Assembly (NCBI GenBank): GCA_902595555.1
Contig: CACJQM010000001.1
Span: 270,001 to 334,000 of the forward strand
Length of the DNA stretch: 64,000 nt
Direction: 5' to 3'
DNA from: an uncultured Bacteroidota bacterium
GTDB lineage: Bacteria > Bacteroidota > Bacteroidia > Flavobacteriales > Flavobacteriaceae
Shown here piece by piece: positions 6,199 through 41,460 of the stretch. Within the stretch, counting starts at the first letter, position 1; each line of letters opens with the position of its first letter. Made by a program: the position numbers and the translations under genes. The notes beneath the pieces are model-generated. The model searched no databases. It saw only the letters and a list, made by a program, of their open reading frames with translations, and was not told the DNA's origin.

Positions 6199-6486
6199 TT
6201 GAGTTTAATAAATATTTTTAGAAGGCCAAGGAATAAAAAGTTTAGGTATTCACCTAGATATTCAAAATCAAATAAAACTAATTTATATGGTTTTGATTCA
6301 GCCTATTCAAAACACAGAGAATCGAACAGTGTTTTTGACAAATCAAATGCATGGGATGAGGCTAGATTAAGGTCAAGAAATCGCTCAAATAGTTTGTTCT
6401 CAAAAACCATACTTTTTATTATAATACTTCTTACCCTAATTTTTCTCTATATAATTGACTTTGATTTATCAATTTTTTTTAAATGA
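6199..6486 (+). CDS. Small conserved membrane protein upstream of mutL
   Basis: A 95-residue protein with a TTG start; no ATG is available in frame near the beginning. The N-terminal two thirds are basic and polar (FRRPRNKKFRYSPRYSK), followed by a C-terminal hydrophobic helix at about 71-90 ending IDFDLSIFF. This is the small protein that precedes mutL in many flavobacteria; from memory it often carries the label 'riboflavin synthase subunit beta', for which nothing in this sequence gives support. It looks like a tail-anchored inner-membrane protein of unknown role. Its stop overlaps the mutL start by 4 bases (ATGA), indicating translational coupling. Confidence 0.75.
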   Translation: MSLINIFRRPRNKKFRYSPRYSKSNKTNLYGFDSAYSKHRESNSVFDKSNAWDEARLRSRNRSNSLFSKTILFIIILLTLIFLYIIDFDLSIFFK

Positions 6487-8261
6487 AAGCAACTATTAAT
6501 AAATTATCAATTGATTTAATCAATAAAATTGCAGCTGGGGAAGTTATTCAAAGACCATCTTCAGTAATTAAAGAGCTTGTTGAAAATTCAATTGATGCAG
6601 AATCAACTGATATTAAATTATTGATCAAGGATTATGGTAAAACCTTAATTGAGATAAGTGACAATGGGGTTGGTATGAATGAAAAAGATTTGAGATTATG
6701 TTTTTTAAAGCACACAACGTCTAAAATTTCAAAATCTAGTGACCTTTTCTCTTTGACTACCAATGGTTTTAGAGGTGAAGCAATCTCAAGTATTTCCTCT
6801 GTTGCTAAAATTAAAATCTCATCATCTAATAATAATGATGGAGTTAGAAATGTTTTATTTATAGAAAACGGAGAAATCACTAAATTTAATCAAGAAGGTG
6901 GTTTAAGGGGAACTACAATTAGTGTAAGTAGTCTTTTTTATAATGTTCCTGCAAGACGAAAGTTTTTAAAGTCAGACAATGTAGAGCTCAGACATATAAT
7001 TAGTGAGTTTTCACGACAATCCCTTTGTAATCCTGGCTTATCTTTTTCTCTAAAACATAATGCTAAAGATTTATATGTTTTAAATAAATCAAATTTGAAA
7101 GAAAGAATTACTCGTTTATTTTCTAAGAATATTGATAAGAAGTTGGTGCCAATAGATGAGATAACTGATATAGCATCAATTAATGGCTACGTTTTCAAAC
7201 CTGAATTCCTGAACAAAACCAATTCTCTTCAGTTTTTTTTTGTTAATGGTAGATTTATAAGAAATAGTTATTTAAGTCATTCTATAGCTACTGCATACGA
7301 AGGTTTGATTAAGCCTGAGCTTCGACCATCATATATTTTATTTATTGAAACACCTGCTAATCAAATTGATGTTAATGTTCATCCTAATAAAATTGAAGTT
7401 AAGTTTGAAAATGAAAGTTCATTGTATTCAATTATTCGATCCAGTGTAAGACATGCTCTTGGAAAATTTAATATATCTCCAAATATTGATTTCAGTGACA
7501 ATGTTAATATATCTATGCCAAACATGCATACTTCTAAAATATCTACACCATCAATAGATTTTAATAATGATTTTAATCCTTTTAAAAATCCAGGAGGAAA
7601 TGTTAATGATGAAATAAATGAAATAAATACAGGTTCTATAGATCAAAAGCTATCTTCATCAATGGACATATTTAGCGAACATGATTTAACAGCCTCATCA
7701 ACATATTCAAGTTTTAATTTTTTAAACAAGTTTATTGTTACAAAAACAAAGTCTGAGCTATTGATAATTAACATAAGAAAAGCATATCAAAGAATATTAT
7801 ATGAGAGAATTTTGTCTGAAATGAATAATAAAACGAATGTATCTCAGACCCTTCTCTTCCCTGTAAAATTCAGTTTTAGCGAATCTGATTTTAGCATATT
7901 AATTAAATTAAAAAAGGCTCTGATTCATCTTGGCTTCATTTTTGAAAAATTTTCAAATAATGAAATAGAAGTTTCTGGAATTCATCCTGTATTTAAGCAT
8001 GATGGGTTAGAGGAGTTCTTTAATGAACTCATTGAAAATGAAATTTTAAATTATAAAGAGCATTCCTCAAGTATGAATGATTATTTAGCCAAATTAATTT
8101 GTTTATCTAAATCTATAAATATTAGTCATTTAGTTAATGAACAAGAACAAATTTTACTTTTAAATCAGCTTTTTGCTTGTAAAGACTCAAAATTTACACC
8201 TGAGAATAAAAAAATTTATATTGCAATTGAGGATAAAGAAATTAATACAAAGTTTAAATAA
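6483..8261 (+). CDS. mutL: DNA mismatch repair protein MutL
   Basis: A 592-residue protein with a GHKL ATPase N-terminal domain: NKIAAGEVIQRPSSVIKELV with catalytic Glu31 and Asn35, DNGVGM, TTSKI, and GFRGEAISSISSV. The transducer domain follows to about 330, then a low-complexity linker (about 340-415) and a dimerisation domain. MutL couples MutS mismatch recognition to strand excision. Where endonuclease-type MutL has the metal-binding DQHAxxER motif, this protein reads NIRKAYQR (430-437), and no C-terminal Cys-Pro-His zinc motif is visible, so nicking activity is doubtful. It overlaps the upstream small ORF by 4 bases and the downstream rhomboid by 1 base. Confidence 0.93.
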   Translation: MKATINKLSIDLINKIAAGEVIQRPSSVIKELVENSIDAESTDIKLLIKDYGKTLIEISDNGVGMNEKDLRLCFLKHTTSKISKSSDLFSLTTNGFRGEAISSISSVAKIKISSSNNNDGVRNVLFIENGEITKFNQEGGLRGTTISVSSLFYNVPARRKFLKSDNVELRHIISEFSRQSLCNPGLSFSLKHNAKDLYVLNKSNLKERITRLFSKNIDKKLVPIDEITDIASINGYVFKPEFLNKTNSLQFFFVNGRFIRNSYLSHSIATAYEGLIKPELRPSYILFIETPANQIDVNVHPNKIEVKFENESSLYSIIRSSVRHALGKFNISPNIDFSDNVNISMPNMHTSKISTPSIDFNNDFNPFKNPGGNVNDEINEINTGSIDQKLSSSMDIFSEHDLTASSTYSSFNFLNKFIVTKTKSELLIINIRKAYQRILYERILSEMNNKTNVSQTLLFPVKFSFSESDFSILIKLKKALIHLGFIFEKFSNNEIEVSGIHPVFKHDGLEEFFNELIENEILNYKEHSSSMNDYLAKLICLSKSINISHLVNEQEQILLLNQLFACKDSKFTPENKKIYIAIEDKEINTKFK

Positions 8262-27577: not shown

Positions 27578-30550
27578 CTATCTAAAGTAATTAATAATAT
27601 TCAATAAAACTATTTCTGAGACAGGATCATAATTTAAGTTTTCAACTAGTTTTAATGTAGATAAAACCATTTTCCCTTTATCATGTTTTACAATAGAAAG
27701 ATCAGATCCAGACCAAACTTCACCTGAGCCAATATAGTTCCTTTTTAATATGTTTCCATCTGGTATTCTGTCAAAGGCTATTGTTTGAACAATATTTTCA
27801 CCTTTAAAATTTCTTAAACTAATGGTTGGGGCAATATTTTCATAAACACCACTCATATTAACATTTACTGGAAGGTTTTTAAAAAATTTATGATTAGAAT
27901 TAATATGTAAGATACCATCCCATAAACCTTGTGATATATTTTTTATAGGTTTTTGTGGTAAATAATCAATACCATCTGGCACAAATGTTAAATTTGGTCC
28001 GATTCTTTTTCTAGTTTTTCCAGGAATTTTTAAAAAAATTGCATTACCACCACTAGCCACAAAAACATTAATATTATCAATTAGCTTCTTAAAATTATTT
28101 TTAATGTTAGTGTTGCCTTTTTCAACTATATTTCCATCTTTAGAACTAAAAAATTCACTATCTGATTGATTAATGATTACTGTTGTGTTTTTATCAGTTT
28201 TTTCATTAAAAATCTCATAACTGACATTATATTTTTTTAAAAAATCAGTTAATTTTCTATCTTCTTTAATTAAAGCAACTTTCAGGTTTTTATTGATTCT
28301 ATCAACAAAAAAAACATCAAAATTTATTGTTGTTGAATAGTCAACATTTCCGTTATTAATTAATGAAACTTTAATTACATATTCTCCATTATCTAAACTA
28401 TTTCCTAATTGAATTTTTTCAAGCTCTGTAATTCCGTTTTTTACATCAACTAAAAACTCATTGCTATAAATCATTTTTTCTGTGTTATTTCCTGATATTT
28501 TGTTAACACTAAACTTGACTTTATTTGTTTCATTTTCATTTTCATTAATTATAATAGTTGAAAATTCAACATTTTCACCAGAGTAATAATTTCTTTTTCC
28601 TGTTCTAATGACAGCAATTTTAGACATGTTGCCTTCCTTAGTTTTTTCATAAGCTAAACCCTTAGGATTTCTCCATAAGTCTAATAATCCAGCACCAATA
28701 ATCCAATCTCCAGCTGTTAAAGCATGAACACAGTAACCTATAACGTTACTATTTGATCTTATTGCTTCTAACATTCTCTTATTAGCTATACCATGTATTT
28801 CTTGCTGCTTTTTGTAAAAATTAGATGCAGATTTGAAAACTTTGATTAAACCTGTTTCCTTTAGCTTTTTCTTAATTTCTCTGTTAAATCTAAGGTGATA
28901 TAAATATGGGTATGTAATTGGATTACCATCTTTTAAAAATCTCAATTCATTATCTTCCATATCAGGAAGACTTCCATAACCTATTTCGGAAACATATGAG
29001 GGTATGTTTGGAACAACATTCCTTCCAGGGGTTCTAGCCTTAAGACCAAGTTTTTTATTCTCCTCAGCTGTCTTTCCAATCGTTAAGAAACCATCAAATT
29101 TGTTATTGTTTATGTTTGGTCCAGGATAATTATGAATATCGTTGAATTTAAATGCTTTAGTGCTGTAGGGGAGATATAAATTAGCTCCTTCTGCCCATCC
29201 ACCAGATTCATCTAGTATTAGTCTTGTTGGATCAAGCTCTCGTGCTTTTAATGACATTGGTTTTAACATGTTTGCTAGTACAGGTCTTCTAATTTCATTA
29301 AATAACTCCCATTGTACAATAGAAGGATGGTTCCTGTCCCTAAGAATTGCTTCAGTAATTTCACTTTCAACTCTTTGAGGTAAATATGGTGTTTCAATAG
29401 GCATATCCATACATTCAATTGCCATACTTCCAACAGTTAATACACCAATTGAATCTGCCAAGTGTAACCATTCTTTTGGTGGAGGTTTTCTCCAAGGTCT
29501 AATCATGTTGAATCCTGCCTTTTTTGCTAATAAAATTTCTTTTATCATCATTTCTTTTGAATCAGGATATGAAAGTTTCACTGGATATAATCCTTCAAAA
29601 AAAGCAGCTTTTAAATATAATGGCTTATCATTTAGGTAAAATTTATTGTTTTTTACTGTAAATTCTCTGAAACCAAATGTTTCTTTAATATTATCTAGTT
29701 CGATAAAAACCGTATCATTATCAGTGATATTAACTTTTTCTAATTTGATGTCAAATTCATACAAAAAAGGATTATCGGGTGACCAAGTTTTATGATTTTT
29801 AATTCTATTTTTTACTTTTTTGAGTACATTCAGATTTGAATTTTCAAGTTTTAAAAATTCTTCAAACTTTTGATTTTGGTTAACATTATATTTCAATTTA
29901 TATAATCCATCTCCTAAACCATTAGTTATTTCATTTACAACCTCTATCTCTCCATTTTTAAAGTTTCCTGTAATAAAGATGTCTTTTATGTGTGTCTGTG
30001 CTGTGTATGAGAGAAATACATCCTGCCAAATTCCTCCAGTGTACGAACCTCTCCATTGTGGAGTCTCCATCTGCCCAATTCCATCAATAACTTTGTCTTG
30101 AATTGTTATTGGTCCCATAACCTTTACTATTAATATGTTATCTGTATCAAAATCAATTATATGTTCAATGTTGAAACTAAAAGGACTAAACCCTCCTTCA
30201 TGAAAACCAACTGAATTATCATTTAAAAAAACTTCAGTTATATAGTTTGAGGCATTAAAATTTAAATGAATTTTACTACCCATTTTATCTTTGTTTACTT
30301 TAAAACTTGTTCTGTAGTAAACAACTCCTTCATAATCCTTTTTAAACCTCTCCCATACACTTGGAACAGCAATATTTTCAATTTTTCCTTTTGAAAACCC
30401 CTCATTAGTATTATAGGATTCTGATTTACCAATATTGTTATAATCATATATTATTTCCCATTCTCCATTCAAATAGGTGATATCATCTCGGATTTGTGAG
30501 TAGTTAATTAGAAATAAAAAAATAAAAATTACTGATGAAATCTTTTTCAT
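27578..30550 (-). CDS. Glycoside hydrolase family 2 protein, exported
   Basis: A 990-residue protein with signal peptide (1-18, ending NYSQ), an N-terminal sugar-binding jelly roll (about 25-185, with VPSVWE and YYRTSF), an immunoglobulin-like domain (about 190-300), and a TIM barrel from about 300. The proposed acid/base is Glu419 in QWELFNEI and the nucleophile Glu522 in VSEIGYG. A long C-terminal part follows (about 640-990) with beta-sandwich character and a flavodoxin/glutamine-amidotransferase-like region. GH2 covers beta-galactosidases, glucuronidases and mannosidases. The segment NMIRPWRKPPP replaces the usual N-x-x-R-x-S-H-x-P, so the substrate pocket is unusual. It abuts the sulfatase gene upstream. 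Confidence 0.87.
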   Translation of the reverse strand: MKKISSVIFIFLFLINYSQIRDDITYLNGEWEIIYDYNNIGKSESYNTNEGFSKGKIENIAVPSVWERFKKDYEGVVYYRTSFKVNKDKMGSKIHLNFNASNYITEVFLNDNSVGFHEGGFSPFSFNIEHIIDFDTDNILIVKVMGPITIQDKVIDGIGQMETPQWRGSYTGGIWQDVFLSYTAQTHIKDIFITGNFKNGEIEVVNEITNGLGDGLYKLKYNVNQNQKFEEFLKLENSNLNVLKKVKNRIKNHKTWSPDNPFLYEFDIKLEKVNITDNDTVFIELDNIKETFGFREFTVKNNKFYLNDKPLYLKAAFFEGLYPVKLSYPDSKEMMIKEILLAKKAGFNMIRPWRKPPPKEWLHLADSIGVLTVGSMAIECMDMPIETPYLPQRVESEITEAILRDRNHPSIVQWELFNEIRRPVLANMLKPMSLKARELDPTRLILDESGGWAEGANLYLPYSTKAFKFNDIHNYPGPNINNNKFDGFLTIGKTAEENKKLGLKARTPGRNVVPNIPSYVSEIGYGSLPDMEDNELRFLKDGNPITYPYLYHLRFNREIKKKLKETGLIKVFKSASNFYKKQQEIHGIANKRMLEAIRSNSNVIGYCVHALTAGDWIIGAGLLDLWRNPKGLAYEKTKEGNMSKIAVIRTGKRNYYSGENVEFSTIIINENENETNKVKFSVNKISGNNTEKMIYSNEFLVDVKNGITELEKIQLGNSLDNGEYVIKVSLINNGNVDYSTTINFDVFFVDRINKNLKVALIKEDRKLTDFLKKYNVSYEIFNEKTDKNTTVIINQSDSEFFSSKDGNIVEKGNTNIKNNFKKLIDNINVFVASGGNAIFLKIPGKTRKRIGPNLTFVPDGIDYLPQKPIKNISQGLWDGILHINSNHKFFKNLPVNVNMSGVYENIAPTISLRNFKGENIVQTIAFDRIPDGNILKRNYIGSGEVWSGSDLSIVKHDKGKMVLSTLKLVENLNYDPVSEIVLLNIINYFR

Positions 30551-32200
30551 TTATTTGATATTTGAGAACCCCTCTGGAACCACAGGATAGGTCATTTCTT
30601 TTAAAAGATTCCTTAGTTCTTGTGTTTTTGGGTGAGTTTTGTTAAATATTAAATTATTCCATTCTTTGGGATCGTTGGAATTATTGTATAGTTCTTCTTC
30701 ACCAGTATTGTACAATATATATCTCCAATCTCTTGTTCTAACTGAATAGTGATGATTAGATGGTATATCAGCATTTTTATCAGATGTATAGACTACACTT
30801 AAAGCTCCATCTGGGCCTTCCCATTCATTTAAATTGGGAGTTTTTAAAAATGGTTTTAAACTAAATCCATCTAGAGGTCTTCCTTGATCATTTTTGGTAG
30901 TTTCAAAGTCAAGCCCTGCTAAATCCAATAACGTTGGGTAAACATCTATTAATGATACTGGATGATATACTTTAGAATCAGCTTTAGATATTCCAGGAGC
31001 TCTAATGAGCATTGGAACTCTTGTGCTTTCTTCCCATAGAGAATTTTTATATACATGTTCTTTTTCACCCATTGTCCATCCATGATCACTTACAATAACA
31101 ACTATAGTATTGTCTTTCAATTTGGAATTGTCCACAGCATTAAGAACCTGTCCTATATTTTCATCTACTGCTGTTACACATGCCAAGTATGCTTGTGTGA
31201 ATCTTTTTAAACCTTCCTTGTCATCTGCGTATGATGCAACCAAGTTTTTATACATTTGAATTGATCGAACTCTTCTTCCAGGTGTTTCAAATTGACTGAC
31301 AGTATGTAAATAAGTATCATCTTTGTCATTCTCTAAAATATTTGCAAGTTCAATATCCTCTAGAGGATACATGTCAAAGTATTTTTGAGGTACGATTAAG
31401 GGTGTATGAGGTCTTAAAAAACCAACAGCTAGAAAAAAAGGTTTTTCACTATCAGAGTTTGCTAATTCTAATAATCTATTTTCCGCCCATTGGGCATTAA
31501 TTTCATCAGGCGTTAGATCTCTATTGTTTTCATCTATGTATTTAAATGTTTTACCTTTTCTTGATGGACCATATGCCCATCTAACTTCCTCACCATTAAC
31601 TTTGATGCCATCTAAATTTTTAAGAGGACCGTAAGACCCATCAATAGCACCTCCTGCCATATTAAAACCATCAAGGTCTTTTACTGTTCTATATGGTTTA
31701 GGAACATCTGGATGGGCAATCCCTTTTTTACCTCTTTTCCATTCACCTTGATATGCAATTGGACTGTAATCAGCTTGATGTTCAAATTCAGTCCACAATT
31801 CATTTTTATTATGATGTAATATCTTACCACTTCCGATAACATCATAATTATTTTCTTTAAATTTTTCCATTATGGTTTTTGTGTTCGACAAAACATTGTT
31901 TTGTAACCATGATCTTTGCCAAAAGTTAGAGGAGTTATGAGGGTAAACTCCAAGTAACATGCTAGATCTGGACGGACCACACATTGGATCGTTTGAATAA
32001 GCATTCTTAAATGATACAGCTGATTTAGCAAAATTTTTGATATTTGGAGTAATGACTTGTGGATGTCCATTAAGGTCTTCATTATAATCATTTAAGTCAT
32101 CAATCATTATTAAAAGAATATTTGGTGATTTTTTTTCATGACTAATACAACTATTTAATAAAAAAAATGAAAGGAATAAAAGAGGTAAGTGTTTTATCAT
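30551..32200 (-). CDS. Formylglycine-dependent sulfatase lipoprotein (S1, iduronate-2-sulfatase-like)
   Basis: A 549-residue sulfatase starting at MIKHLPLLFL (an upstream in-frame ATG at 32230 is less likely because it shifts the signal peptide). A lipobox ends at Cys18 (LLNSC). Metal ligands lie in MIDDLNDY, and the residue converted to formylglycine is Cys74 in CGPSR. ANNs like VSDHGWTMGEKEHVYKNSLW and FLRPHTPLIVP resemble iduronate-2-sulfatase-type S1 enzymes (SulfAtlas S1_7 would be my guess). It probably removes sulfate esters from an algal glycan at the cell surface or periplasm. It heads the leftward unit with the GH2 gene and diverges from the beta-helix genes. Confidence 0.9.
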   Translation of the reverse strand: MIKHLPLLFLSFFLLNSCISHEKKSPNILLIMIDDLNDYNEDLNGHPQVITPNIKNFAKSAVSFKNAYSNDPMCGPSRSSMLLGVYPHNSSNFWQRSWLQNNVLSNTKTIMEKFKENNYDVIGSGKILHHNKNELWTEFEHQADYSPIAYQGEWKRGKKGIAHPDVPKPYRTVKDLDGFNMAGGAIDGSYGPLKNLDGIKVNGEEVRWAYGPSRKGKTFKYIDENNRDLTPDEINAQWAENRLLELANSDSEKPFFLAVGFLRPHTPLIVPQKYFDMYPLEDIELANILENDKDDTYLHTVSQFETPGRRVRSIQMYKNLVASYADDKEGLKRFTQAYLACVTAVDENIGQVLNAVDNSKLKDNTIVVIVSDHGWTMGEKEHVYKNSLWEESTRVPMLIRAPGISKADSKVYHPVSLIDVYPTLLDLAGLDFETTKNDQGRPLDGFSLKPFLKTPNLNEWEGPDGALSVVYTSDKNADIPSNHHYSVRTRDWRYILYNTGEEELYNNSNDPKEWNNLIFNKTHPKTQELRNLLKEMTYPVVPEGFSNIK

Positions 32201-32253
32201 AATATTTATTTTTATATTTATTATTCTCATATAAATATCATTATTACTAATCT

Positions 32254-34029
32254 ATGAAAAAGAAAATTTTTTTACTAATTATATCGTTTTTTGTTATTGC
32301 ATGTTCATCTGATTCGGGAGGTGATGGTGGAGGCTCTGATAACGGAGGTGGAAACAATAACGGTGGGGGCAACAATAACGGTGGAGGAAATAATTCAGGA
32401 ACTACTGACACTACAGACCCAAATGATTTTGATTCGACAACATCTCCTGGTGATACAACTTACTATATAAGTTATAATTCTGGAAATGATAACAATGATG
32501 GTAAAAGTGAAGATAAGCCCTTTAAAAATTTAGGAAAAATTAATAGTATAACCTTTAACCCTGGTGATAAAATTAAATTTAAATCAGGTGAAACATGGAA
32601 AGGTTATTTTAAGCTTAGAGGATCTGGTTCTGAAAACAAACCAATTGTGATTGAAAACTATGCTAGTGGTAACAAGCCTGTTATTGATGGTGATGGATAT
32701 CAAGCAGCTGTGTTCATTGAAAATAGAGAATATGTTACTGTTTCGGGTTTAGAATTAACAAATCAAGCATCTCATAAAAATAGTAATGGATCAGTTAAAC
32801 TCATGAACCAATCAAGTAGATCAGGTTTAAATGAAAGATATGGACTACTAGTTTTAAGAAGTGGATCTAATAACGTTAAAAATATAAGCTTAAGTGACTT
32901 AAAAATAAATAATATATATCCTTCACCAACAGATTCTGATAATAATCATCAAGGTTATGGTATTAGATTTGAATCAATCAATGACGATAATGTATTAAAT
33001 TATTATGATGGTATTACTGCTGAAAACTTAGATATTTCAAATACTGGACATTATGGTTTACATATAGTAAATAGAATGACGGGTGCCCAAGCAGATTATT
33101 ATCACAGAAATATTTCGATTAAAAACTCAAAGTTTACAGATACTGGTGGCTCAGGTATTGTTTTAGCCAGATGTAAGGATGTTGTTGTTGAAAATTCTGA
33201 ATTTAAGGGATCAGGTTCAGGAAAAGATAGCAGAATGTGGAATAGGGGAAGCAGCTTGTGGACATACACTTGTAATGATACTGTAATTCAAAATAATCTA
33301 TTTGAGGATGTATATGGTCCTGCTGATTCATATGGTGCACACATAGACTGGGGATGTGAAAGAGTTGTGATACAATATAACTTGAGTAAAAATAATTATG
33401 GTGGTTTTGCTGAGATTTTAGGTGAAAATATTATGTGTGGATATAGGTACAACATCAGTATAGGTGATGGAGGAAGAACAAACACTAATGTTGGTAAGAC
33501 ATTTTGGGTTTCTGATTATGCCGGAAGCAACACTAGAAGAATTGGATCTGAAGATAATTTTATATACAACAATACAGTTTTTATCCCCAGCCAAAATCCA
33601 GCTAATAATAATGCTCCATTCGATCATTTAGAGATATTTATTAGACCAAATACTAAAGAAACATATATATACAATAATCTAATTTATATAAGCGATAAAG
33701 CTAAATTGAAAATTGATACAAGAAATGATGGAACTATGAATGATTGGAAAAATAATCTGTTTTATGGGAATTTAGTTATTGATGGAGGATCTGATTATGA
33801 GCATAATGGTACTGAAATTTTTACAAATCCACTTCTAGCTAATCCAGGTGGTTCAACTGCTAATGATTATAAATTACAGTCCTCTAGTCCTGCAATTGGA
33901 TCAGGTTATGTTATTAATGGTAGTGACGATGTCAAAAACTATATTCAGAATAATGGGGGAAGAGATTACTTTGGAAATTCTGTAAGTTCTAATTCAAAAC
34001 CTAATATTGGTGCATATAATGGAAATTAG
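32254..34029 (+). CDS. Right-handed parallel beta-helix lipoprotein (1)
   Basis: A 591-residue protein with lipobox at Cys17 (FFVIACSS), a Gly/Asn-rich flexible linker at about 22-48 and then a parallel beta-helix from about 70 to 560. The helix starts with YYISYNSGNDNNDGKSEDKP, the entry used by pectate-lyase-like and DUF1565 proteins. Conserved core segments are RMWNRGSSLWTY, GPADSYGAHIDWGCERVVIQ and NNYGGFAEILGEN, which recur in the next gene. This fold hosts polysaccharide lyases and several glycosidase families (for example GH28, GH82, GH110, PL6), but I cannot assign one. The lipid anchor plus spacer suggests surface display. It is the first gene of the seven-gene rightward unit. Confidence 0.83.
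   Translation: MKKKIFLLIISFFVIACSSDSGGDGGGSDNGGGNNNGGGNNNGGGNNSGTTDTTDPNDFDSTTSPGDTTYYISYNSGNDNNDGKSEDKPFKNLGKINSITFNPGDKIKFKSGETWKGYFKLRGSGSENKPIVIENYASGNKPVIDGDGYQAAVFIENREYVTVSGLELTNQASHKNSNGSVKLMNQSSRSGLNERYGLLVLRSGSNNVKNISLSDLKINNIYPSPTDSDNNHQGYGIRFESINDDNVLNYYDGITAENLDISNTGHYGLHIVNRMTGAQADYYHRNISIKNSKFTDTGGSGIVLARCKDVVVENSEFKGSGSGKDSRMWNRGSSLWTYTCNDTVIQNNLFEDVYGPADSYGAHIDWGCERVVIQYNLSKNNYGGFAEILGENIMCGYRYNISIGDGGRTNTNVGKTFWVSDYAGSNTRRIGSEDNFIYNNTVFIPSQNPANNNAPFDHLEIFIRPNTKETYIYNNLIYISDKAKLKIDTRNDGTMNDWKNNLFYGNLVIDGGSDYEHNGTEIFTNPLLANPGGSTANDYKLQSSSPAIGSGYVINGSDDVKNYIQNNGGRDYFGNSVSSNSKPNIGAYNGN
32341..32394 (+). repeat. Three 18-base tandem units coding a Gly/Asn linker
   Basis: Three near-identical 18-base units (AACGGAGGTGGAAACAAT type) encode NGGGNN three times. 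They form the flexible spacer between the lipid anchor and the beta-helix of the host protein. Such repeats can change copy number by slippage, which would alter spacer length without breaking the frame. Confidence 0.85.
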
Positions 34030-35628
34030 ATGAAAAAAATATTTGTACTTATATTATTTGTTTTTATATCATGTGATGGGGTACAATATGGAGAGAGTAA
34101 TAATCTTGGCAAGACGTATTATTTTAACTCAAAATCTGCTGATAATTCAAATATAGGAACAAAAGAAAAACCTTTCAAAAGTCTTGATTATTTAGAAGAG
34201 ATTGAACTATATAACGGAGATAAGATATTGCTTTCAAACGGTTCTACTTTTTTAAATACAATTGAATTATTAAACGTAAATGGCATTGAAATCTCAAACT
34301 ATCAAGCTGATAGTATTGTTAAGCTTCCAACAATCAACTCTAGAGGTAAAATAGCATCTATTTTAATTGAAAATTCATCGAATATTAACATTAACAATAT
34401 TGAAATTACAGCTGACGGTGGTGGTCCTAATGAATTTTTACATAAAAAACTAAAATCTGATTTAAGATCTGGAATTTTATACTTAGTAACTGATAAAAAA
34501 GAACATAATAATTTAGAAATAACTAACGTTTCAATAAAAGATGTTTTTTACGAAAATCAAGGTTTTATTAGAGATAAAAAAGAGGTTAAAACTCCTAATG
34601 GAACACAAAGTTATGGTTGGGGTATTAGAATTCTGAATCTATCTGAAAGTGGAAATCTTGAAAATATTACTATTCAAGATTCTGAATTTATAAATATTTC
34701 ACATACTGCTATTAGACTTATTGGTAAAAGGAACAATCAATTTAAAAACATAAATATTTTAAATAATAAAGTATTTAAGACTGGTGGTCCAGGGATGGTT
34801 TTTAATAGCACTACAAATCTATTAGCTAAAAATAATGATATTAATTATACAGGATCTAATGATGACCCCCGAAAGTGGGGAAGAGGAAGTGGTTTATGGA
34901 CATGGGGAAGTTCCTATGCTTTAATCACAAACAATAGTTTTCAAAATGCTAATGGACCAGCCGACTCAGCAGGATGTCATATTGACTTTAATTGTAACGA
35001 TATCATAGTTGAAAATAATTTAAGTAGAAATAATGCTGGTGGTTTTATTGAAATTTTAGGAACCAACTTTAATTGCTCATACAGAAACAACGTAAGTATA
35101 AATGATGGGCACAGGATTAAAGGAAAGGAAAATGCATTTCAAGAGGGTAAAACTTTTTGGTTAAGCGGATATTCAGGAAAAGGAAATGAGAGAAAAGGTC
35201 CATACAATTCATATGTTTATGGTAATTATGTTTATGTTGGAAAAGAAATAATACCAAAGATTGCTGTAGATAAAAAAGCAAAAGGTGTATTTGTAGCAAA
35301 TAATATATTTTATTTTGAAAATGATCCAGTTATGGTATTAGGAGATCAATATAAACCAGATCCTGGTGGAAAATTAGAAATTGAAAATGTATTTTTTGAA
35401 AATAATCTGTTTTTAAAAAATCATTGGCCAAAAAATGTATTAATTCAACCTACTAATAACATTTATACAAATAGTTATTTCCAGGTATTTCTTGATGATG
35501 CAGGATTATTAGACGATAATGGATTTAGTGTAAATCATACTTATGATTACCCTTATCCAAAGTTTTTTAGCAATATTAAAATTGATTATATAAATGGAGA
35601 TTCAAATGGTCTCTGGAAAGGTTTTTAA
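34030..35628 (+). CDS. Right-handed parallel beta-helix lipoprotein (2), paralogue of the preceding gene
   Basis: A 532-residue lipoprotein (lipobox FISCD, Cys15) starting immediately after the first beta-helix gene. It lacks the Gly/Asn spacer. The core repeats the same landmark segments in altered form: RKWGRGSGLWTW, GPADSAGCHIDFNCNDIIVE, RNNAGGFIEILGTNFNCSYR and DGHR. The two proteins are therefore diverged duplicates with the same presumed active-site face. The start of the helix, YYFNSKSADNSNIGTKEKPF, is again DUF1565-like. Likely role is cleavage or binding of the glycan used by this locus; the activity is unknown. Confidence 0.82.
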   Translation: MKKIFVLILFVFISCDGVQYGESNNLGKTYYFNSKSADNSNIGTKEKPFKSLDYLEEIELYNGDKILLSNGSTFLNTIELLNVNGIEISNYQADSIVKLPTINSRGKIASILIENSSNININNIEITADGGGPNEFLHKKLKSDLRSGILYLVTDKKEHNNLEITNVSIKDVFYENQGFIRDKKEVKTPNGTQSYGWGIRILNLSESGNLENITIQDSEFINISHTAIRLIGKRNNQFKNINILNNKVFKTGGPGMVFNSTTNLLAKNNDINYTGSNDDPRKWGRGSGLWTWGSSYALITNNSFQNANGPADSAGCHIDFNCNDIIVENNLSRNNAGGFIEILGTNFNCSYRNNVSINDGHRIKGKENAFQEGKTFWLSGYSGKGNERKGPYNSYVYGNYVYVGKEIIPKIAVDKKAKGVFVANNIFYFENDPVMVLGDQYKPDPGGKLEIENVFFENNLFLKNHWPKNVLIQPTNNIYTNSYFQVFLDDAGLLDDNGFSVNHTYDYPYPKFFSNIKIDYINGDSNGLWKGF

Positions 35629-35631
35629 AAA

Positions 35632-36759
35632 ATGAAAATATCTAAAATAATTCCTTACGTATTAAATGAAGATCTTGAAAAAGAGTTCTTCTTTTCCCAA
35701 TGGGAATATAGTAATCGAAAAATTTGTATTGTAAAGATAATCTGTGATGATGGAATGGTTGGATGGGGTGAAGCTTATGGACCAGCTCCAGTCGTCAAAG
35801 AAAGTATTAATTATATCAAACAAAATATAATTGGTATGAATCCACTTGAGTCTGATGTTATTTGGTCAACATTATTTAGAAGAGTTCATGATTATGGTAG
35901 ATCAGGTGTTTTTGTTTCCGCAATAAGCGCTATAGACATTGCTTTGTGGGATATTAAAGGGAAATATTATAAACTACCTGTGTCTACTTTATTAGGTGGT
36001 TCATATATAGAAAAAATAAGGCCATATGCAACTGGACTTTATTTTTCTGATTCAAAGACATTAACTGACGATTTATGTAATGAAGCTTTGGAATATGTAA
36101 ATGAGGGCTTTAAATCAATTAAAATGAAGGTTGGTTTAAATTTAAAGGATGATATTTCTAATGTTAAAGCAGTTAGAAATGCCATTGGTCCTGATATTGA
36201 GTTAATGATAGACTCAAACCACGCTTACTCATATGATGAGGCTCTAAAATTATCCAAGAAATTAGAAGACCAAGATATTAAATGGTTTGAAGAACCATTG
36301 TCGCCTGAGTTTTATGATCAATATTCAGATTTTAAATCAAAATCCTTAATCCCAGTTGCAGCTGGTGAGTGTGAGTATCTCAGATACGGTTTTCAAAAAC
36401 TTTTGGACAAAAACTGTGTTGATTTTTTACAGATGGATATATGTTCATGCGGAGGTTTGACCGAGGCCAAAAGGATATCAGCATTATCCTCGACAAAAGG
36501 AGTAAAAGTTATTCCTCACACTTGGGGTTCGGGCATTGCCTTTTATACAGCAATTAATTTTATTTCCAATCTTGAACCAATTCCAGGGAGGTTATATATG
36601 GATGATGCATATATTGAATATGATAGAACAGAAAATAAAATTCGAGAAAATATTATAAAAGATAATATTATAATGAAGGATGGCTATATTTCTGTCAATG
36701 ATAAACCTGGTCTGGGTGTTGATGTTGATGAAACTTATTTAAATGAAATAAAGATTTAG
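35632..36759 (+). CDS. Enolase-superfamily (mandelate racemase/muconate lactonizing) sugar-acid enzyme
   Basis: A 375-residue protein with the complete mandelate-racemase-subgroup active site: K164-x-K166 in SIKMKVG, metal ligands Asp194 (IDSNH), Glu220 (FEEPL) and Glu246 (AAGECE), and His296 in PHTWGSG. Such enzymes abstract the proton alpha to a carboxylate. In sugar catabolism they dehydrate aldonic acids to 2-keto-3-deoxy acids, or open anhydro-aldonates (3,6-anhydrogalactonate cycloisomerase). Given the aldehyde dehydrogenase, KDG-type kinase and KDPG-type aldolase that follow, its product is probably a 2-keto-3-deoxyhexonate. It lies 3 bases after the second beta-helix gene and 2 bases before the dehydrogenase. 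Confidence 0.88.
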   Translation: MKISKIIPYVLNEDLEKEFFFSQWEYSNRKICIVKIICDDGMVGWGEAYGPAPVVKESINYIKQNIIGMNPLESDVIWSTLFRRVHDYGRSGVFVSAISAIDIALWDIKGKYYKLPVSTLLGGSYIEKIRPYATGLYFSDSKTLTDDLCNEALEYVNEGFKSIKMKVGLNLKDDISNVKAVRNAIGPDIELMIDSNHAYSYDEALKLSKKLEDQDIKWFEEPLSPEFYDQYSDFKSKSLIPVAAGECEYLRYGFQKLLDKNCVDFLQMDICSCGGLTEAKRISALSSTKGVKVIPHTWGSGIAFYTAINFISNLEPIPGRLYMDDAYIEYDRTENKIRENIIKDNIIMKDGYISVNDKPGLGVDVDETYLNEIKI

Positions 36760-36761
36760 TT

Positions 36762-38204
36762 ATGAACTTTGGTAACCTTAAAATGTATATTAATGGAGAG
36801 TTAACCTCCTCACACCAAAATATTACTAAGGATATTATTAGCCCATTAAATGATGAAAAAATAGCAACTCTTGCCTGGGGATCAAGCAATGACTCTTTAA
36901 GTGCTCTTGATTCGGCAAAAGAGGGATTTAAAGTTTGGTCAAATACTCCTATTAAAAAGAGGAAAGAGTGGATGCTTCTTTTAAGAGAAAAAATATTGGA
37001 AAATGAAGAAATATTAAGAAGGTCTATCTCTTATGAAATGGGAAAACCATACCTAGCAACAGCTGAAGACATTGAATCAATAACCAACAGTTTAAAATAT
37101 TACTCTGATATTATTGAAGATTATCAATCAGACAAAGAAATTGTAGATAATGAAAATACTCATAAACACTATTTGATTTCAAAACCTATTGGTGTGGTGG
37201 TAGCATATTTAGCTTGGAATTTCCCATTGTTAAATGCTGGTTTTAAATTAGGTCCTGCTCTTGCTTCAGGATGTAGTATTATTCTAAAGCCCTCAGAATT
37301 ATCACCATTATCCTTATACATTATTGGTCAAATTCTTGATGAAATTGATTTTCCTAAGGGTGTGGTGAATATTATTTGTGGAGAACCCAATCAGGTTGCA
37401 ACAACTTTGTCAAAAAGTACCATTCCAAATTTAATTACGATGATTGGTTCAACTGAAACTGCAAAAAAAGTAATATCCGATTCATCTACATCAATTAAAA
37501 AATATAGTATGGAGCTTGGTGGAAATGCACCTTTCATTGTATTTGATGATGCTGATATTGATCTTGCAGCCGATATAGGTGCTGCTATTAAATTTGGAAA
37601 TTGTGGACAAATATGTGTTGCTGCTAATAGATTTTATATTCATCAAAATATTTTTGATTCATTTCTAAATAAACTAATCTCAAAAGCCAAAAATCTTAAG
37701 ATTGGTTATAACAAAGAACTTGACTATGACATTGGACCATTAATTACAAATAAATCTAAAGACAGAGTATTAGGATTAATTAAAAACACTGTAGATAGTG
37801 GTGGTTCTTTAGAATATGGAGGTAAAACACCCGAAAACTTAGACAAAGGAAATTGGATATATCCAACAATTATCTCTGGTGTAAATGATAAAATGAAGAT
37901 TTTTCATGAGGAGATTTTTGGTCCTGTAGCAACATTAATACCATTTAAATCTGATGATGATGTTCTATTATCTGCAAACAATACAAAATATGGACTCGCA
38001 TCATATATATTTACTAATGATAAAAGTAGAATTAATCGTTTTATTGATGAACTTGACTTTGGGGAGATCCACGTAAATGGGATTAAGTATGATATTTATC
38101 TTCCACATGGTGGAATTAAGGAGAGTGGTGTGGGTCATGATTGCTCAGAACTAGCATTGGAGGATTATCTCATTAAAAAAAGAATAACTATTACAAAACA
38201 ATAA
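36762..38204 (+). CDS. NAD(P)-dependent aldehyde dehydrogenase of the sugar locus
   Basis: A 480-residue aldehyde dehydrogenase with catalytic Cys285 in CGQICVAANR, general base Glu251 in MELGGNAPF, the oxyanion/cofactor segment AYLAWNFPLLN and the Rossmann contact IGSTETAKK. It belongs to the succinate-semialdehyde/lactaldehyde-like group. In this operon it would oxidise a free sugar aldehyde to the aldonate used by the enolase-family enzyme. 3,6-anhydrogalactose dehydrogenases are of this fold, whereas ordinary galactose dehydrogenases are not. Alternative: oxidation of a downstream semialdehyde or lactaldehyde. Confidence 0.9.
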   Translation: MNFGNLKMYINGELTSSHQNITKDIISPLNDEKIATLAWGSSNDSLSALDSAKEGFKVWSNTPIKKRKEWMLLLREKILENEEILRRSISYEMGKPYLATAEDIESITNSLKYYSDIIEDYQSDKEIVDNENTHKHYLISKPIGVVVAYLAWNFPLLNAGFKLGPALASGCSIILKPSELSPLSLYIIGQILDEIDFPKGVVNIICGEPNQVATTLSKSTIPNLITMIGSTETAKKVISDSSTSIKKYSMELGGNAPFIVFDDADIDLAADIGAAIKFGNCGQICVAANRFYIHQNIFDSFLNKLISKAKNLKIGYNKELDYDIGPLITNKSKDRVLGLIKNTVDSGGSLEYGGKTPENLDKGNWIYPTIISGVNDKMKIFHEEIFGPVATLIPFKSDDDVLLSANNTKYGLASYIFTNDKSRINRFIDELDFGEIHVNGIKYDIYLPHGGIKESGVGHDCSELALEDYLIKKRITITKQ

Positions 38205-38206
38205 CT

Positions 38207-39208
38207 ATGGAACTATTTTTACCTTTTTTACTACTAATTTTTGCAAGTTTTTTTCAAGGAACGTTCGGTTTAGGAATGAAATATATGAATCCAATGTCAT
38301 GGGAATCATGGTGGGTGATTCACGTTTTAGTCGCTATGATTTTATTCCCAATGATTTGGGCATATATTGTAATTCCAGATTTGTTTGACATTATAGCTAG
38401 TTCTCCAAAAGATGCTATTTATTCTGCAATGCTATATGGTTTTTTGTGGGGAATTGGAGGTATAATGTTTGGTGTTAGTGTTCCTTACATTGGCTTATCT
38501 CTCACAATGGGAATTGTCATGGGTCTTGCAGGATCTGCTGGTAGCTTGATTCCACTCTTTCAGATTGAGAATGCTACTTCTCAACCATCATTTCCTTACA
38601 TAATAGGAGGTTTAATAATATCACTAATAGGAGTTGCCATTACAGCAAAAGCAGGAATTGATAGAGACAAATTAATTAATTCCTCAAGTAAATCTAAAAA
38701 TATATTAAAAGGATTGTTGATTGCTGTAACATGTGGATTGCTATCATCCTTATTGAATGTTGGTTTTGCAAATGCTGCTCCAATTGCAGAAAAAGCCCAA
38801 GAATTTGGAGTTATTACTAGAAATTCAAGTCTTGCTGCATGGGTCGTTGTTTTGTGGGGTGCTTTTATTATGAATTTCTCATACGCTGTTCTACTTTTAT
38901 TTAAAAATAATTCATGGACTACTTTTAGTTTGAAAAATTCACTGAATGCCTATAAATGGTCATTAATTGCAGGTTTTTGTTGGTTTGCAGCCTTAGGTGT
39001 TTACGGTCAAGGAGCTGCTTTACTAGGTGAAATTGGTCCAGTTATCGGTTGGCCGATATTATTAGGTTTATCTCTAATTATCAGTAATTATTGGGCATAT
39101 AATGCTGGTGAATGGGATAATGCACAAAAACCTTTTAATAAATTATTGATTGGTTTATTCGTATTAATCATTTCTGCAGTTGTTTTAGGCTTAGGTAATT
39201 CTGTATAA
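38207..39208 (+). CDS. RhaT-like sugar/proton symporter (DMT superfamily)
   Basis: A 333-residue inner-membrane protein with about ten hydrophobic helices, resembling the L-rhamnose/H+ symporter RhaT. Features include an early FFQGTFGLGMKYMNPMSWES segment, LWGIGGIMFGVSVPYIGLS, and the internal repeat with LSSLLNVGFANAAPIAEKAQ. It probably imports the monosaccharide handled by the surrounding enzymes. No rhamnose-specific enzyme (RhaA, RhaB, RhaD) is nearby, so its substrate need not be rhamnose. It sits 2 bases after the aldehyde dehydrogenase. Confidence 0.82.
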   Translation: MELFLPFLLLIFASFFQGTFGLGMKYMNPMSWESWWVIHVLVAMILFPMIWAYIVIPDLFDIIASSPKDAIYSAMLYGFLWGIGGIMFGVSVPYIGLSLTMGIVMGLAGSAGSLIPLFQIENATSQPSFPYIIGGLIISLIGVAITAKAGIDRDKLINSSSKSKNILKGLLIAVTCGLLSSLLNVGFANAAPIAEKAQEFGVITRNSSLAAWVVVLWGAFIMNFSYAVLLLFKNNSWTTFSLKNSLNAYKWSLIAGFCWFAALGVYGQGAALLGEIGPVIGWPILLGLSLIISNYWAYNAGEWDNAQKPFNKLLIGLFVLIISAVVLGLGNSV

Positions 39209-39209
39209 A

Positions 39210-40199
39210 ATGGATAAAATTGTTGGATATGGTGAATTAATGCTTAGGTTGACACCTGAAAATGATGATTTTCTTTCAACTTATAGTGAAAAATTACTTA
39301 GTACTTATGGTGGTTCTGAAGCCAACTCATTGTCTTTTTTAGGAAGACGGGGGTACAATTGTGAATTTTTATCATCATTTCCAAATAATGAACTAGGTAA
39401 TAAAGCAACATTATTCTTAAACTCACACGGAGTAAAGGTCAACGCTAATATTGATCATAATAGACTTGGAAAATATCTCGCAATACCCGGATCAAAAAAT
39501 AAACCATCTAAAATTATTTACGATAGAAAAAACAGTAGTTTTTCTAAATTTAAATTAAATGATAAACTCATAAATAAAACCCTAAAGGATTGTTCTTATA
39601 TAATTATCTCAGGGATAACACCACCACTATCAAATGTTTGCTACGATAATATTTTTAAACTAATAGAGAATGCCAAGAATAACGACATAAAGATTGTTTA
39701 TGATATTAATTACAGAAAAGATCTTTGGTCTAGGAACGAAAGTAAAAATTTTAACCTGAAAATTTTAAAATATATAGATGTTCTTTTTACTAATTCAAAT
39801 ACATTTAATCATGTTTTTGATTTAAAATCAAAATTAAAATTTAATGGTTTTTATAATGAATCTGAGGAAACTTTAAAAAATATATTAAGTGTGAATAATA
39901 TACCAACTATATGTATGACAGTTAGAAATAAAGATGAAATCGGAGGATTAATATTTCAAAAAAGTAAAATATATAAAAGTAATATATACAATTTTGAACA
40001 TGTTGATAGAGTAGGTGCAGGAGATTCATTTACAGGAGCTACCTTACATGGATTTTTAAAGAGCTGGTCGATGGAAAAAGTAGTTTCTTTTGCAACAGCT
40101 TCATTTGCAATATCACACACAAAATTTGGGGATGTAAACTGCTTTGACGATAAAGAAATAGAAGCTTTTAGAATAAATAATTCAATTAATTATGCTTAA
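39210..40199 (+). CDS. PfkB-family sugar kinase, 2-keto-3-deoxygluconate/galactonate kinase-like
   Basis: A 329-residue ribokinase-fold kinase that opens with GYGELMLRLTPENDDF and STYGGSEANSLSFLGRRGY, the N-terminal pattern of KDG kinases. The C-terminal ATP-binding motif is RVGAGDSFTGA with catalytic Asp272. It should phosphorylate a 2-keto-3-deoxyhexonate at O6 with ATP. It overlaps the following aldolase gene by 8 bases, which fits direct coupling of kinase and aldolase. The epimer (gluconate or galactonate form) cannot be decided from the sequence. Confidence 0.87.
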   Translation: MDKIVGYGELMLRLTPENDDFLSTYSEKLLSTYGGSEANSLSFLGRRGYNCEFLSSFPNNELGNKATLFLNSHGVKVNANIDHNRLGKYLAIPGSKNKPSKIIYDRKNSSFSKFKLNDKLINKTLKDCSYIIISGITPPLSNVCYDNIFKLIENAKNNDIKIVYDINYRKDLWSRNESKNFNLKILKYIDVLFTNSNTFNHVFDLKSKLKFNGFYNESEETLKNILSVNNIPTICMTVRNKDEIGGLIFQKSKIYKSNIYNFEHVDRVGAGDSFTGATLHGFLKSWSMEKVVSFATASFAISHTKFGDVNCFDDKEIEAFRINNSINYA

Positions 40200-40800
40200 G
40201 GAAAATAAAATTATTTCAGTCCTAACAATTGAGAATTCCTCCTTAGCTATTGATCTTGCTAAATGTCTTTCTGATTCAGGAATTAGAAATTTAGAAATTA
40301 CTTTAAGAACCAAAGAAGCTAAAAAGGCAATTGAGCTCATACTCGGTACTAACCTTGATTTTAATATCGGAATTGGAACTGTTTTAACTTTAGATGATTT
40401 GAAGTTTGCCAAGGACATTGGTGCAGACTTTGCTCTTTCACCATGCACTGACATTGAATTGATTAAAGAATCATTTAAGATTGATTTTAATTTTATTCCT
40501 GGAGTATCTACCTCATCAGATATTAATACTGCAATAAAATTAGGTTGTAAGGTTCTAAAGTTGTTTCCAACCATACAATTAGGAGGGTTGAGCTACTTTA
40601 AATCAATTTATTCTCCTTATAAATCTTCAGAATTAAATTTTATAGCTCTTGGCGGAATCAATGATAAGAATGCCAACGATTTTATAAAAAATGAACATTT
40701 TATTGGAGTTGGAGCAAGTTGGATTGCATCAAAAAAACTAATAAAGAATAAAGATTGGAAGGAAATTTCTAGAAGAGCTAAGTTGATTCTCGAATTATAA
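40192..40800 (+). CDS. 2-dehydro-3-deoxy-6-phospho-hexonate aldolase (KDPG/KDPGal type)
   Basis: A 202-residue class I aldolase with the KDPG-aldolase signature: NLEITLRT with Glu35 as proton-transfer residue, NIGIGTVL, FIPGVST, and the Schiff-base lysine Lys123 in VLKLFP. It splits 2-keto-3-deoxy-6-phosphogluconate or galactonate to pyruvate and glyceraldehyde-3-phosphate. It is the last gene of the rightward sugar operon, overlapping the kinase gene by 8 bases and the convergent hypothetical gene by 6 bases. Confidence 0.9.
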   Translation: MLKENKIISVLTIENSSLAIDLAKCLSDSGIRNLEITLRTKEAKKAIELILGTNLDFNIGIGTVLTLDDLKFAKDIGADFALSPCTDIELIKESFKIDFNFIPGVSTSSDINTAIKLGCKVLKLFPTIQLGGLSYFKSIYSPYKSSELNFIALGGINDKNANDFIKNEHFIGVGASWIASKKLIKNKDWKEISRRAKLILEL

Positions 40801-41460
40801 GCTTAGAAAATCAAAAAAAGTAATGAAAAGGTCTTTAAGCTCTTCATTATCCCTTGGTGATATTTTATTTTTCTTATAAAATGTGTTTATTTCCTTGGAT
40901 TTGGATTTGTTAAACATTGAAATCAAAAAGTTTTTTCTTCTTTCTATGTATGTAAATCTATTATTGTAAAATAAAAAAACGGAATTATTTCTCCTATATC
41001 TTGGATCTGGTTTTTCCTGAATTCCTGGTTGATATTCAGGAATATAGGCTTCAAGAAAAGTGTCAGCTAGTAATGAAAAATTAGAATTTTCCTCTATAGA
41101 TTCATAAAACTTACCATTTTTAGAGACAAAAACTCTATCACTGAATGTAACTTTTAAAACTTTATTTGGCTCTAATTTCAATATGTTGTCTTCCCCTTCA
41201 ATGTCAAAAGTTTGGTCAAGTAAATTATAATTAGTTTTAACTTTTATTGGTTCTTCACCATCAAATAAAACAAGAACTGCTTCTTGAGGTTTTTTGTAAA
41301 AATACTTGTTACCAGTAAAAGTTGTGGTTTTTGGATTATATACAGAGGCTATTTCTCTTTGAACCAATTGAAAATTTGATTCATACATATCAGAGGAAAT
41401 AAAATTCGTCTGTGCCAATGTAGCGATAGGAAAAAATATAAAGAAAACAATTGCTCTCAC
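40795..41460 (-). CDS. Hypothetical exported protein
   Basis: A 221-residue protein with a clear signal peptide (1-16, ending TLAQ). The mature part is beta-rich up to about residue 150 and basic/helical at the C terminus. I recognise no family or motif. It is transcribed alone, converging on the sugar operon. The minus strand has a TAAATTTG box (41465-41472) 4 bases before the start codon, which would give a leaderless mRNA. Confidence 0.6.
   Translation of the reverse strand: MRAIVFFIFFPIATLAQTNFISSDMYESNFQLVQREIASVYNPKTTTFTGNKYFYKKPQEAVLVLFDGEEPIKVKTNYNLLDQTFDIEGEDNILKLEPNKVLKVTFSDRVFVSKNGKFYESIEENSNFSLLADTFLEAYIPEYQPGIQEKPDPRYRRNNSVFLFYNNRFTYIERRKNFLISMFNKSKSKEINTFYKKNKISPRDNEELKDLFITFFDFLSL

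Follow-up and report, generated by a model that had tools for sequence, protein, structure and literature searches.

The window analysed here is a stretch of 64,000 nucleotides (positions 270,001 to 334,000 of contig CACJQM010000001.1, assembly GCA_902595555.1) from a flavobacterial genome of 1.41 Mb that is 83% complete. It carries two adjacent genes for beta-helix lipoproteins, A and B, at the head of a set of sugar-pathway genes (Table 1). A and B are followed by genes for an enolase-superfamily enzyme (ENO), an aldehyde dehydrogenase (ALDH), a RhaT-family symporter, a PfkB-family kinase and an aldolase, with intergenic gaps of 0, 3, 2, 2, 1 and -8 bases; the A and B reading frames directly abut (34029/34030). 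Because the gaps are tiny or overlapping, the genes from A to the aldolase are likely to form a single transcript. When 32100-41000 was scanned for promoters and terminators, the number of sites did not exceed that in shuffled sequence. The sulfatase and GH2 genes diverge from A, the sulfatase gene being separated from A by 23 bases, and the sulfatase contains CGPSR, which we take to be the S1 sulfatase motif. By Pfam, the nine genes scanned include no SusD of the cluster's own. A first-pass annotation of the window had coupled A and B to a sugar pathway with a sulfatase and a neighbouring GH2 enzyme, and Pfam, NCBIfam and Protein Data Bank (PDB) matches confirmed this. The evidence below suggests a probable part for A and B in degrading a sulfated sugar chain of red-algal type to 3,6-anhydrogalactose, where they may stand in for the enzymes known to catalyse that step.

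Table 1. Genes of the cluster, and motifs and predicted catalytic residues of proteins A and B, in window coordinates.
Feature	Position	Strand	Remarks
GH2 glycoside hydrolase	27578..30550	-	downstream of sulfatase; Pfam GH2_C, GH2_N, GH2
S1-type sulfatase lipoprotein	30551..32230	-	Pfam Sulfatase 4.5e-48
Protein A, beta-helix lipoprotein, GH136-related	32254..34029	+	591 aa
A motif RMWNRGSSLWT	33232..33264	+	residues 327-337
A D358, predicted acid/base	33325..33327	+	aligned with ErLnb136 D568
A D365, predicted nucleophile	33346..33348	+	aligned with ErLnb136 D575
A motif GGFAEILG	33400..33423	+	from residue 383; clade-marking Glu387
Protein B, beta-helix lipoprotein, GH136-related	34030..35628	+	532 aa
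B motif RKWGRGSGLWT	34870..34902	+	residues 281-291
B D312, predicted acid/base	34963..34965	+
B D319, predicted nucleophile	34984..34986	+
B motif GGFIEILG	35038..35061	+	from residue 337; clade-marking Glu341
ENO, DauB-like 3,6-anhydro-D-galactonate cycloisomerase, enolase superfamily	35632..36759	+	best PDB 5olc
ALDH, DauA-like 3,6-anhydro-D-galactose dehydrogenase	36762..38204	+	best PDB 6pnu/6pop
RhaT/DMT-family sugar-proton symporter	38207..39208	+	Pfam RhaT 5.5e-31
PfkB-family sugar kinase, proposed KDGal kinase (DauC role)	39210..40199	+	Pfam
KDPG-type aldolase, proposed DauD role	40192..40800	+	Pfam Aldolase 2.3e-48; TIGR01182 above cut-off

The N-termini of A and B, read by eye, carry a lipoprotein-type signal up to a Cys (...FFVIAC in A and ...VFISC in B), judged by what we take to be the lipobox motif. 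In A a Gly/Asn-rich linker follows. The reading frames and shared core motifs described in the first-pass annotation are present, and the two proteins align by BLASTP with 30% identity over 432 aa (E 1e-48). A further core motif begins at residue 355 in A (GPADSYGAHIDWGC) and at residue 309 in B (GPADSAGCHIDFNC). The right-handed beta-helix fold expected for them was also predicted: Beta_helix (PF13229) is the only Pfam domain in either protein, and AlphaFold modelled both as right-handed beta-helices (A, pLDDT 83.5, pTM 0.85; B, pLDDT 82.9, pTM 0.87). Pfam found the GH127 domain PF07944 in neither protein, and DUF1565, which had been put forward for checking, was not among their Pfam matches at E up to 1.

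The family was examined in an alignment of 29 homologues and in 56 representatives, obtained by reducing 158 profile hits to 78 by length and containment and to 56 at 80% identity; the window's own A and B are stood for in this set by the identical loci L001 and L158. The expectation of an invariant core held for Asp, His, Arg and Trp, which together with Glu do not vary across the 29 homologues, and failed for the Cys of the GPADS motif, which is present in only 38 of the 56 representatives and replaced by Asn in 15.

A profile built from the 29 homologues matched just five PDB sequences at E of 1 or less, namely 6kqs (1.6e-36), 7v6m (titled TnX lacto-N-biosidase), 5gqc, 24mr and 7v6i, all of them lacto-N-biosidases. 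Lacto-N-biosidases were also the top Foldseek matches for both models (7v6m, 8.7e-21 for A; 6kqt, 1.3e-14 for B). In VIA, A superposed on 7v6m with Z 33.5 and a root-mean-square deviation of 2.7 Å over 462 aligned residues, the next row from another family having Z 29.0. The beta-helix is shared with the GH136 enzymes (LnbX, ErLnb136, TnX, BsaX) over most of the chain, with 25-27% identity over 363-462 residues for A and 23% over about 430 for B. The NCBIfam lacto-N-biosidase model NF047897 matched the N-terminal part only, with 39 bits for A and 21 for B against a cut-off of 2500. No GH82 or kappa-carrageenase structures were among the PDB-profile, Foldseek and VIA matches listed for A and B. 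GH136 activity requires a helical GH136-I domain or partner subunit; the models of A and B have no such N-terminal domain, and Pfam assigned the seven remaining genes of the cluster to different families (the genome itself was not searched for GH136-I).

The predicted active site carries the same kinship. ErLnb136 is reported to use D568 as acid/base and D575 as nucleophile (PMC7335108). These residues align with D358/D365 of A and D312/D319 of B (hand count, the alignment numbering being two higher), and each of the two positions is Asp in 55 of the 56 representatives, A and B included. An aromatic residue also occupies the position of the stacking W548, Trp in B and Tyr in A (again by hand count, with chain numbers two higher). 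In B numbering as aligned, W290, N302, R352 and N354 are among the positions common to the family and both GH136 rows, whereas three other positions mark the new clades: H317 (49/56), two before the nucleophile, where GH136 has Asp; E341 (49/56), which is Met in both GH136 rows; and R285 (50/56), which is Val in ErLnb136. R362, kept in 52/56, lies outside the GH136 pieces that could be aligned. Such an Arg-rich site would, to judge by sequence, suit an anionic or sulfated substrate. A and B differ from GH136 also in their gene context, with a sulfatase and the anhydrogalactose (dau) genes.

A 58-row tree placed the A genes of the host's genus and of genome G026 in one clade (100/99) and their B genes in another (100/99), the latter inside a B group of 30 rows (97/91). 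A third clade (100/100) has 13 rows. The two GH136 rows, both partial sequences, join six others (four Flavobacteriaceae and two Pontiellaceae) at 100/100, and A, B and the third clade fall outside. The root is a midpoint root, L156 sits on a very long branch, and the tree leaves the order among A, B and the third clade unsettled. Because the tree places A and B outside the clade of the GH136 rows, they are best called GH136-related, a distant branch beside GH136 and not plain GH136. Thus, the earlier statement that A and B match no named CAZy family has to be revised, since they have remote GH136 relatives with the same catalytic Asp pair, though they form separate clades.

The genes downstream of B suggest what sugar is at stake. 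ENO scored 447 bits against 5olc, 310 against the galactarolactone cycloisomerase AtGCI (4ggb) and 152 against 5xd7, an enzyme for 3,6-anhydro-L-galactose (L-AHG). The first of these is DauB of Zobellia galactanivorans, described as a 3,6-anhydro-D-galactonate cycloisomerase (PMC5698469). By hand count, ENO has the seven catalytic and pocket positions that the same source names, K166, D194, E220, E246, H296, D87 and W298 (PMC5698469). All seven are also found in AtGCI; the DauB assignment rests on the scores and on stretches such as FSQW, GLYF and GECEYL, which match DauB and not AtGCI. ALDH scored 482 bits against 6pnu/6pop and 305 against the next structure. 6PNU and 6POP were deposited with a paper that reports the DauA structure (PMC6923384), and so appear to be the DauA entries. 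For the PfkB kinase, the NCBIfam KDG/KDGal kinase matches were under cut-off. An agar-type pathway for L-AHG was rejected, 5xd7 and 5xd9 giving 152 and 150 bits against 447 for DauB.

Since ENO and ALDH are nearest to DauB and DauA and are accompanied by a symporter, a kinase and an aldolase as in Zobellia, the operon most likely takes 3,6-anhydro-D-galactose (D-AHG) to pyruvate and triose phosphate. The Zobellia carrageenan cluster ZGAL_3145-3159 likewise combines DauA- and DauB-like enzymes, a kinase, an aldolase and a sulfatase with a DMT-type Sugar/H+ symporter (ZGAL_3157, comparable to the RhaT protein of the window), and has no susCD pair within the cluster (PMC5698469). The window operon differs in having A and B in place of GH127 or DagB, and in the GH2 gene of its cluster.

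Homologues of A and B adjoin the sulfatase in each of L001-L017; in L031-L045 and L049 more of the cluster recurs, to the extent that the sequence stretches cover it. A-type genes (at least 60% identity) are present in 17 of the 23 genus genomes and also in G026. The GH2 gene is syntenic in several genus loci and in G026. In L028, L030, L043, L044 and L049, some of which represent the same contig, B and ALDH are not separated by the DauB gene. L028, L030 and L049 represent one branch of the genus, in which DauB is a different copy, 58-60% identical, that lies elsewhere than at the B-ALDH junction; A and B remain in the operon. The B relative of L032 (10001-10945, 314 aa) is shortened by a stop, and that of G002 likewise has an internal TGA, either a possible pseudogene or a sequencing error. 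In L018/L029 (G019, a genus member) the A-type gene lies in a 790-aa frame; DauB was not found in that genome, which is 71% complete.

The distribution of the genes across genomes was then compared. Members of the beta-helix family were counted at E up to 1e-50, full-length GH127 at E below 1e-80 and, in the family-wide scan, DauB at 1e-100. Within the genus, A is present in 17/23 genomes and DauB in 16/23, all 16 being among the 17 (p 7e-5). GH127 was found in none of the 23 and DagB in none of the five genus genomes tested. Among 397 Flavobacteriaceae, 10 genomes have DauB and the beta-helix family, 25 DauB only, 10 the beta-helix family only and 352 neither (p 7.7e-7, or 1.3e-4 minus three genus rows); 3 or 4 candidates per genome were scored in these scans, which makes the counts lower bounds.

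Outside the genus, 35 genomes with DauB were considered, 32 of the 35 Flavobacteriaceae matches (three genus members being omitted) together with G100, G102 and G103. Full-length GH127 is present in 27 of them and not in G026, G119, G136, G306, G428, G456, G100 and G102. The beta-helix family is present in 10 (G026, G136, G237, G306, G314, G428, G456, G100, G102 and G103), so that it occurs in 7 of the 8 genomes without full GH127 versus 3 of the 27 with it (Fisher p 1.3e-4, kinship ignored). DagB was found in 8 of 40 genomes tested, all 8 with GH127.

This near-exclusion was recalculated with the doubtful cases reassigned. Four weak beta-helix hits had been left out, in G391 (3.1e-19), G437 (1.5e-16), G023 (1.2e-16) and G141 (4.2e-16), all of which have GH127. 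They match N-terminally; over their full frames, however, G391 and G023 show remote similarity to most of the profile (89 and 59 bits), and the G391 frame falls in the GH136-side clade of the tree. Counting all four gave 7/8 versus 7/27 (p 0.003). Fragmentary GH127 hits in G119, G456 and G100 had not been counted; that of G119 passes the cut-off together with its neighbours, and counting G119 as a GH127 genome gave 7/7 versus 3/28 (p 1.8e-5). In G102 the DauB match covers a fragment of 95 residues that contains a stop (43%), and dropping this genome gave 6/7 versus 3/27 (p 4.0e-4), or p 0.007 if the weak hits were counted as well.

Gene neighbourhoods outside the genus vary. In L131 (G428, 78% complete) and L142 (G136, 87% complete), from two other genera, a more distant, third-clade-like beta-helix gene lies with GH2 and GH16 beside DauB; neither GH127 nor DagB was found there. 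G456 has a GH2 relative (42%) with two third-clade genes and GH16 (L173), on the same 3.7 Mb contig as its dau cluster and not adjoining it. In G314, about 40-80 kb of a single contig separate one DauB copy from several beta-helix genes. UBA4439 (G100) has a dau operon with relatives of the sulfatase (50%) and GH2 (an orthologue, 41%) on one contig (L075); its B gene is on a second contig, together with a SusCD pair (L046). The dau operons of L114 (G119) and L075 both come with relatives of the GH2 and sulfatase genes of the window.

The reading we prefer, tentatively and at somewhat less than even chances, is that A and B are retaining exo-glycosidases acting on carrageenan-type oligosaccharides that contain D-AHG, and that at least one of them frees 3,6-anhydro-D-galactose by alpha-1,3 cleavage. 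The divergent sulfatase would strip sulfate and GH2 would trim beta-galactose. A and B, lipid-anchored at the cell surface, would then hydrolyse the desulfated oligomers with retention, using the Asp/Asp pair, at least one of them performing the alpha-1,3 step, the role of GH127 (DagA) or DagB in Zobellia, and the other perhaps releasing beta-1,4-linked units. Free D-AHG would be imported by the RhaT-family symporter and pass to DauA, DauB, the kinase and the aldolase. In Zobellia, GH127 and DagB are reported to do the alpha-1,3 step (PMC5698469). That at least one of A and B does it here is most likely because neither GH127 nor DagB was found in the genus genomes searched and because the beta-helix family is present in 7/8 of the other DauB genomes without full GH127. 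The likeness to the Zobellia enzymes (DagA1-3 and DagB) is thus one of proposed role, pathway position and near-exclusive occurrence with GH127; in structure they differ, DagB having a TIM barrel core (PMC5698469) and A and B a predicted beta-helix. Since two copies only 30% identical are kept together, A and B may serve two different bonds or subsites.

The first-pass annotation had seen in A and B the likely endo-depolymerases of the cluster. The analysis did not show this: LnbX, of GH136, is described as having a pocket, and beta-helix endo-enzymes acting on polymers a long cleft (PMC8106489), and the co-occurrence data point instead to an exo-acting anhydrogalactosidase step.

The best PDB match of GH2 is a beta-glucuronidase (7xyr, E 3.9e-35, region 26-450). 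The PDB matches of the sulfatase are mixed S1 enzymes, among them an iota-carrageenan sulfatase (6b0k, 6.3e-31), and so point to no single subfamily. GH16 genes are present in 22/23 genus genomes, and SusD genes in 23/23, close to the cluster on the same contig in G016 and G022. Two GH16 proteins, one beside a third-clade gene in L025 and one in L024, have laminarinases as best PDB matches, that of L024 also matching an endo-beta-galactosidase (1ups, 4.5e-9).

A number of observations weigh against our preferred reading. No endo-enzyme of the kind that the scheme requires was identified, and the two GH16 proteins compared with the PDB gave no proof of an endo-carrageenase. In VIA, AlgE epimerases (Z 31.2) rank above GH136 (Z 29.2, 429 residues) for B. 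Three DauB genomes (G237, G314 and G103) carry both the beta-helix family and GH127, and four more GH127 genomes have the weak relatives; conversely, 10 of the 20 beta-helix genomes of the family-wide scan have no DauB match at 1e-100. Among the 10 non-genus genomes with both DauB and the beta-helix family, the genes lie together only in G026, G136 and G428, as far as the inspected stretches of roughly 20 kb show. G119, which is 99% complete, has DauB and a GH2-sulfatase-dau operon, yet no beta-helix hit, full GH127 or DagB, which hints that a further anhydrogalactosidase exists or that the step was lost. Shared descent is not corrected for in the Fisher tests, and since many genomes are incomplete, 'absent' may mean missing data. 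The DauB label needs 4 changes on the B group, compared with 10.2 when shuffled, with 9 of the 16 plus-rows coming from the genus or G026, near-copies that inflate the contrast; support is weak (72/93) for the forks of the B tree at which rows with and without DauB part. In L024, L175, L176, L178 and L180, all from genomes without a DauB match, the B relatives are accompanied by genes of the SusCD-like, Glyco_hydro_cc, GH16 and sulfatase types; a sulfated beta-1,3-glucan may be the substrate there, or some other glycan. The B subclades seem to follow different substrates, which agrees with a function beside the dau genes but shows the family overall not to be carrageenan-specific. The public records of the relatives are mostly of uncultured Bacteroidetes, presumably from the open ocean, where carrageenan is no obvious food. 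Finally, GH136 enzymes cut a beta bond, whereas cleavage of a formally alpha bond is proposed here. In the bridged 1C4 ring of D-AHG, however, that alpha bond would be equatorial, and a GH136-type site could for this reason accept it.

The bond cleaved by GH136 enzymes is also the starting point of a serious rival, which we nevertheless consider unlikely. A and B could both be beta-1,4-acting exo-carrageenases that release neocarrabiose, biosidases like GH136, with the alpha-1,3 step left to an enzyme not recognised here. GH136 enzymes are reported to release a disaccharide (PMC7335108), and G119 shows that a dau operon can occur where GH127, DagB and beta-helix hits were not found. Against this, the beta-helix family is nearly exclusive with GH127, which is the anhydrogalactosidase, and G136 and G428 have GH16 and GH2 beside the beta-helix gene and still have neither GH127 nor DagB, in genomes that are incomplete as given above.

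It is less probable again that the substrate is some other sulfated or D-AHG-containing glycan, or that the products of the dau-like genes act on a related anhydro- or lactone sugar, with A and B cutting a linkage absent from carrageenan. The five loci in which B relatives accompany Glyco_hydro_cc (which we take to be GH128-type), GH16 and sulfatase genes would fit this, as would the failure to identify a kappa- or iota-carrageenase, the two GH16 proteins compared with the PDB being nearest to laminarinases. A polysaccharide utilization locus (PUL) with GH136 and sulfatases has likewise been called 'enigmatic' for want of an obvious substrate (PMC9723794). However, DauB and the ALDH of the DauA paper lead by wide margins among the solved relatives of ENO and ALDH, the seven named ENO positions are present, and the B subclades track DauB status, within the limit set by the genus near-copies.

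We think it very improbable that A and B are non-catalytic surface lipoproteins that bind glycans: tandem lipoproteins in a cluster of nine genes without SusD could serve capture, but conservation is high for the Asp pair and for an Arg/His/Glu set (48-55 of the 56 representatives at each position), which would be atypical of binding proteins. The idea that they are polysaccharide lyases or epimerases of the PL6 or AlgE type can be practically dismissed, since, well as such structures align (B on 5lw3, Z 31.2; 7o7a in Foldseek), the sequence profile matches lacto-N-biosidases only and the adjoining pathway handles an anhydro sugar and not a uronate.

Returning to A and B as exo-glycosidases, a broader proposal can be made, which we regard as possible but doubtful: that A, B and the third sister clade constitute a new glycoside hydrolase family off GH136 that includes a third, unrelated solution to alpha-1,3-(3,6-anhydro)-D-galactosidase activity, in streamlined pelagic Flavobacteriaceae that eat a carrageenan-like galactan unexpected in the open sea. 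The anhydrogalactosidase families named in two reports are GH127 and that of DagB, which is GH129-like (PMC10958521, PMC5698469); a further report assigns the Pseudoalteromonas anhydrogalactosidase to a different family, unidentified as of 2019 (PMC6923384). A beta-helix enzyme acting on an alpha-1,3 bond in carrageenan has a precedent in the GH110 alpha-1,3-galactosidase of lambda-carrageenan (PMC7939477). GH110 structures (9beu, 7jw4) are among the Foldseek matches for B, weakly so (TMq 0.27-0.36 among the matches listed), and GH110 gave no match in the A/B-family profile search of the PDB. If the proposal is true, a beta-helix enzyme would be the third solution for this step, and this would suggest that bacteria with small genomes in the open water consume a polymer of anhydrogalactose.

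No link of GH136-like proteins to anhydrogalactose was found in keyword searches of the open-licence literature. Two reports nevertheless touch on the subject. GH136 is described as enriched on the second chromosome of Flammeovirga, beside GH82, GH127 and GH167 (PMC8653839). The enigmatic PUL of Winogradskyella forsetii, likened here by its description only, combines GH136 genes and sulfatases in a marine flavobacterium (PMC9723794), and A and B, if the proposal holds, would offer a handle on such loci of marine Bacteroidota. Beyond the operon, a full-length third beta-helix copy was not found in the window's own genome. Some genus members carry a third-clade beta-helix gene away from the dau operon, as in L025 (G020, 4548-7531, about 670 aa), where it is the neighbour of the laminarinase-like GH16. 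Further afield, L054 of Pontiellaceae bacterium B1224 (Kiritimatiellota) has two large GH136-like proteins near a sulfatase-like gene.

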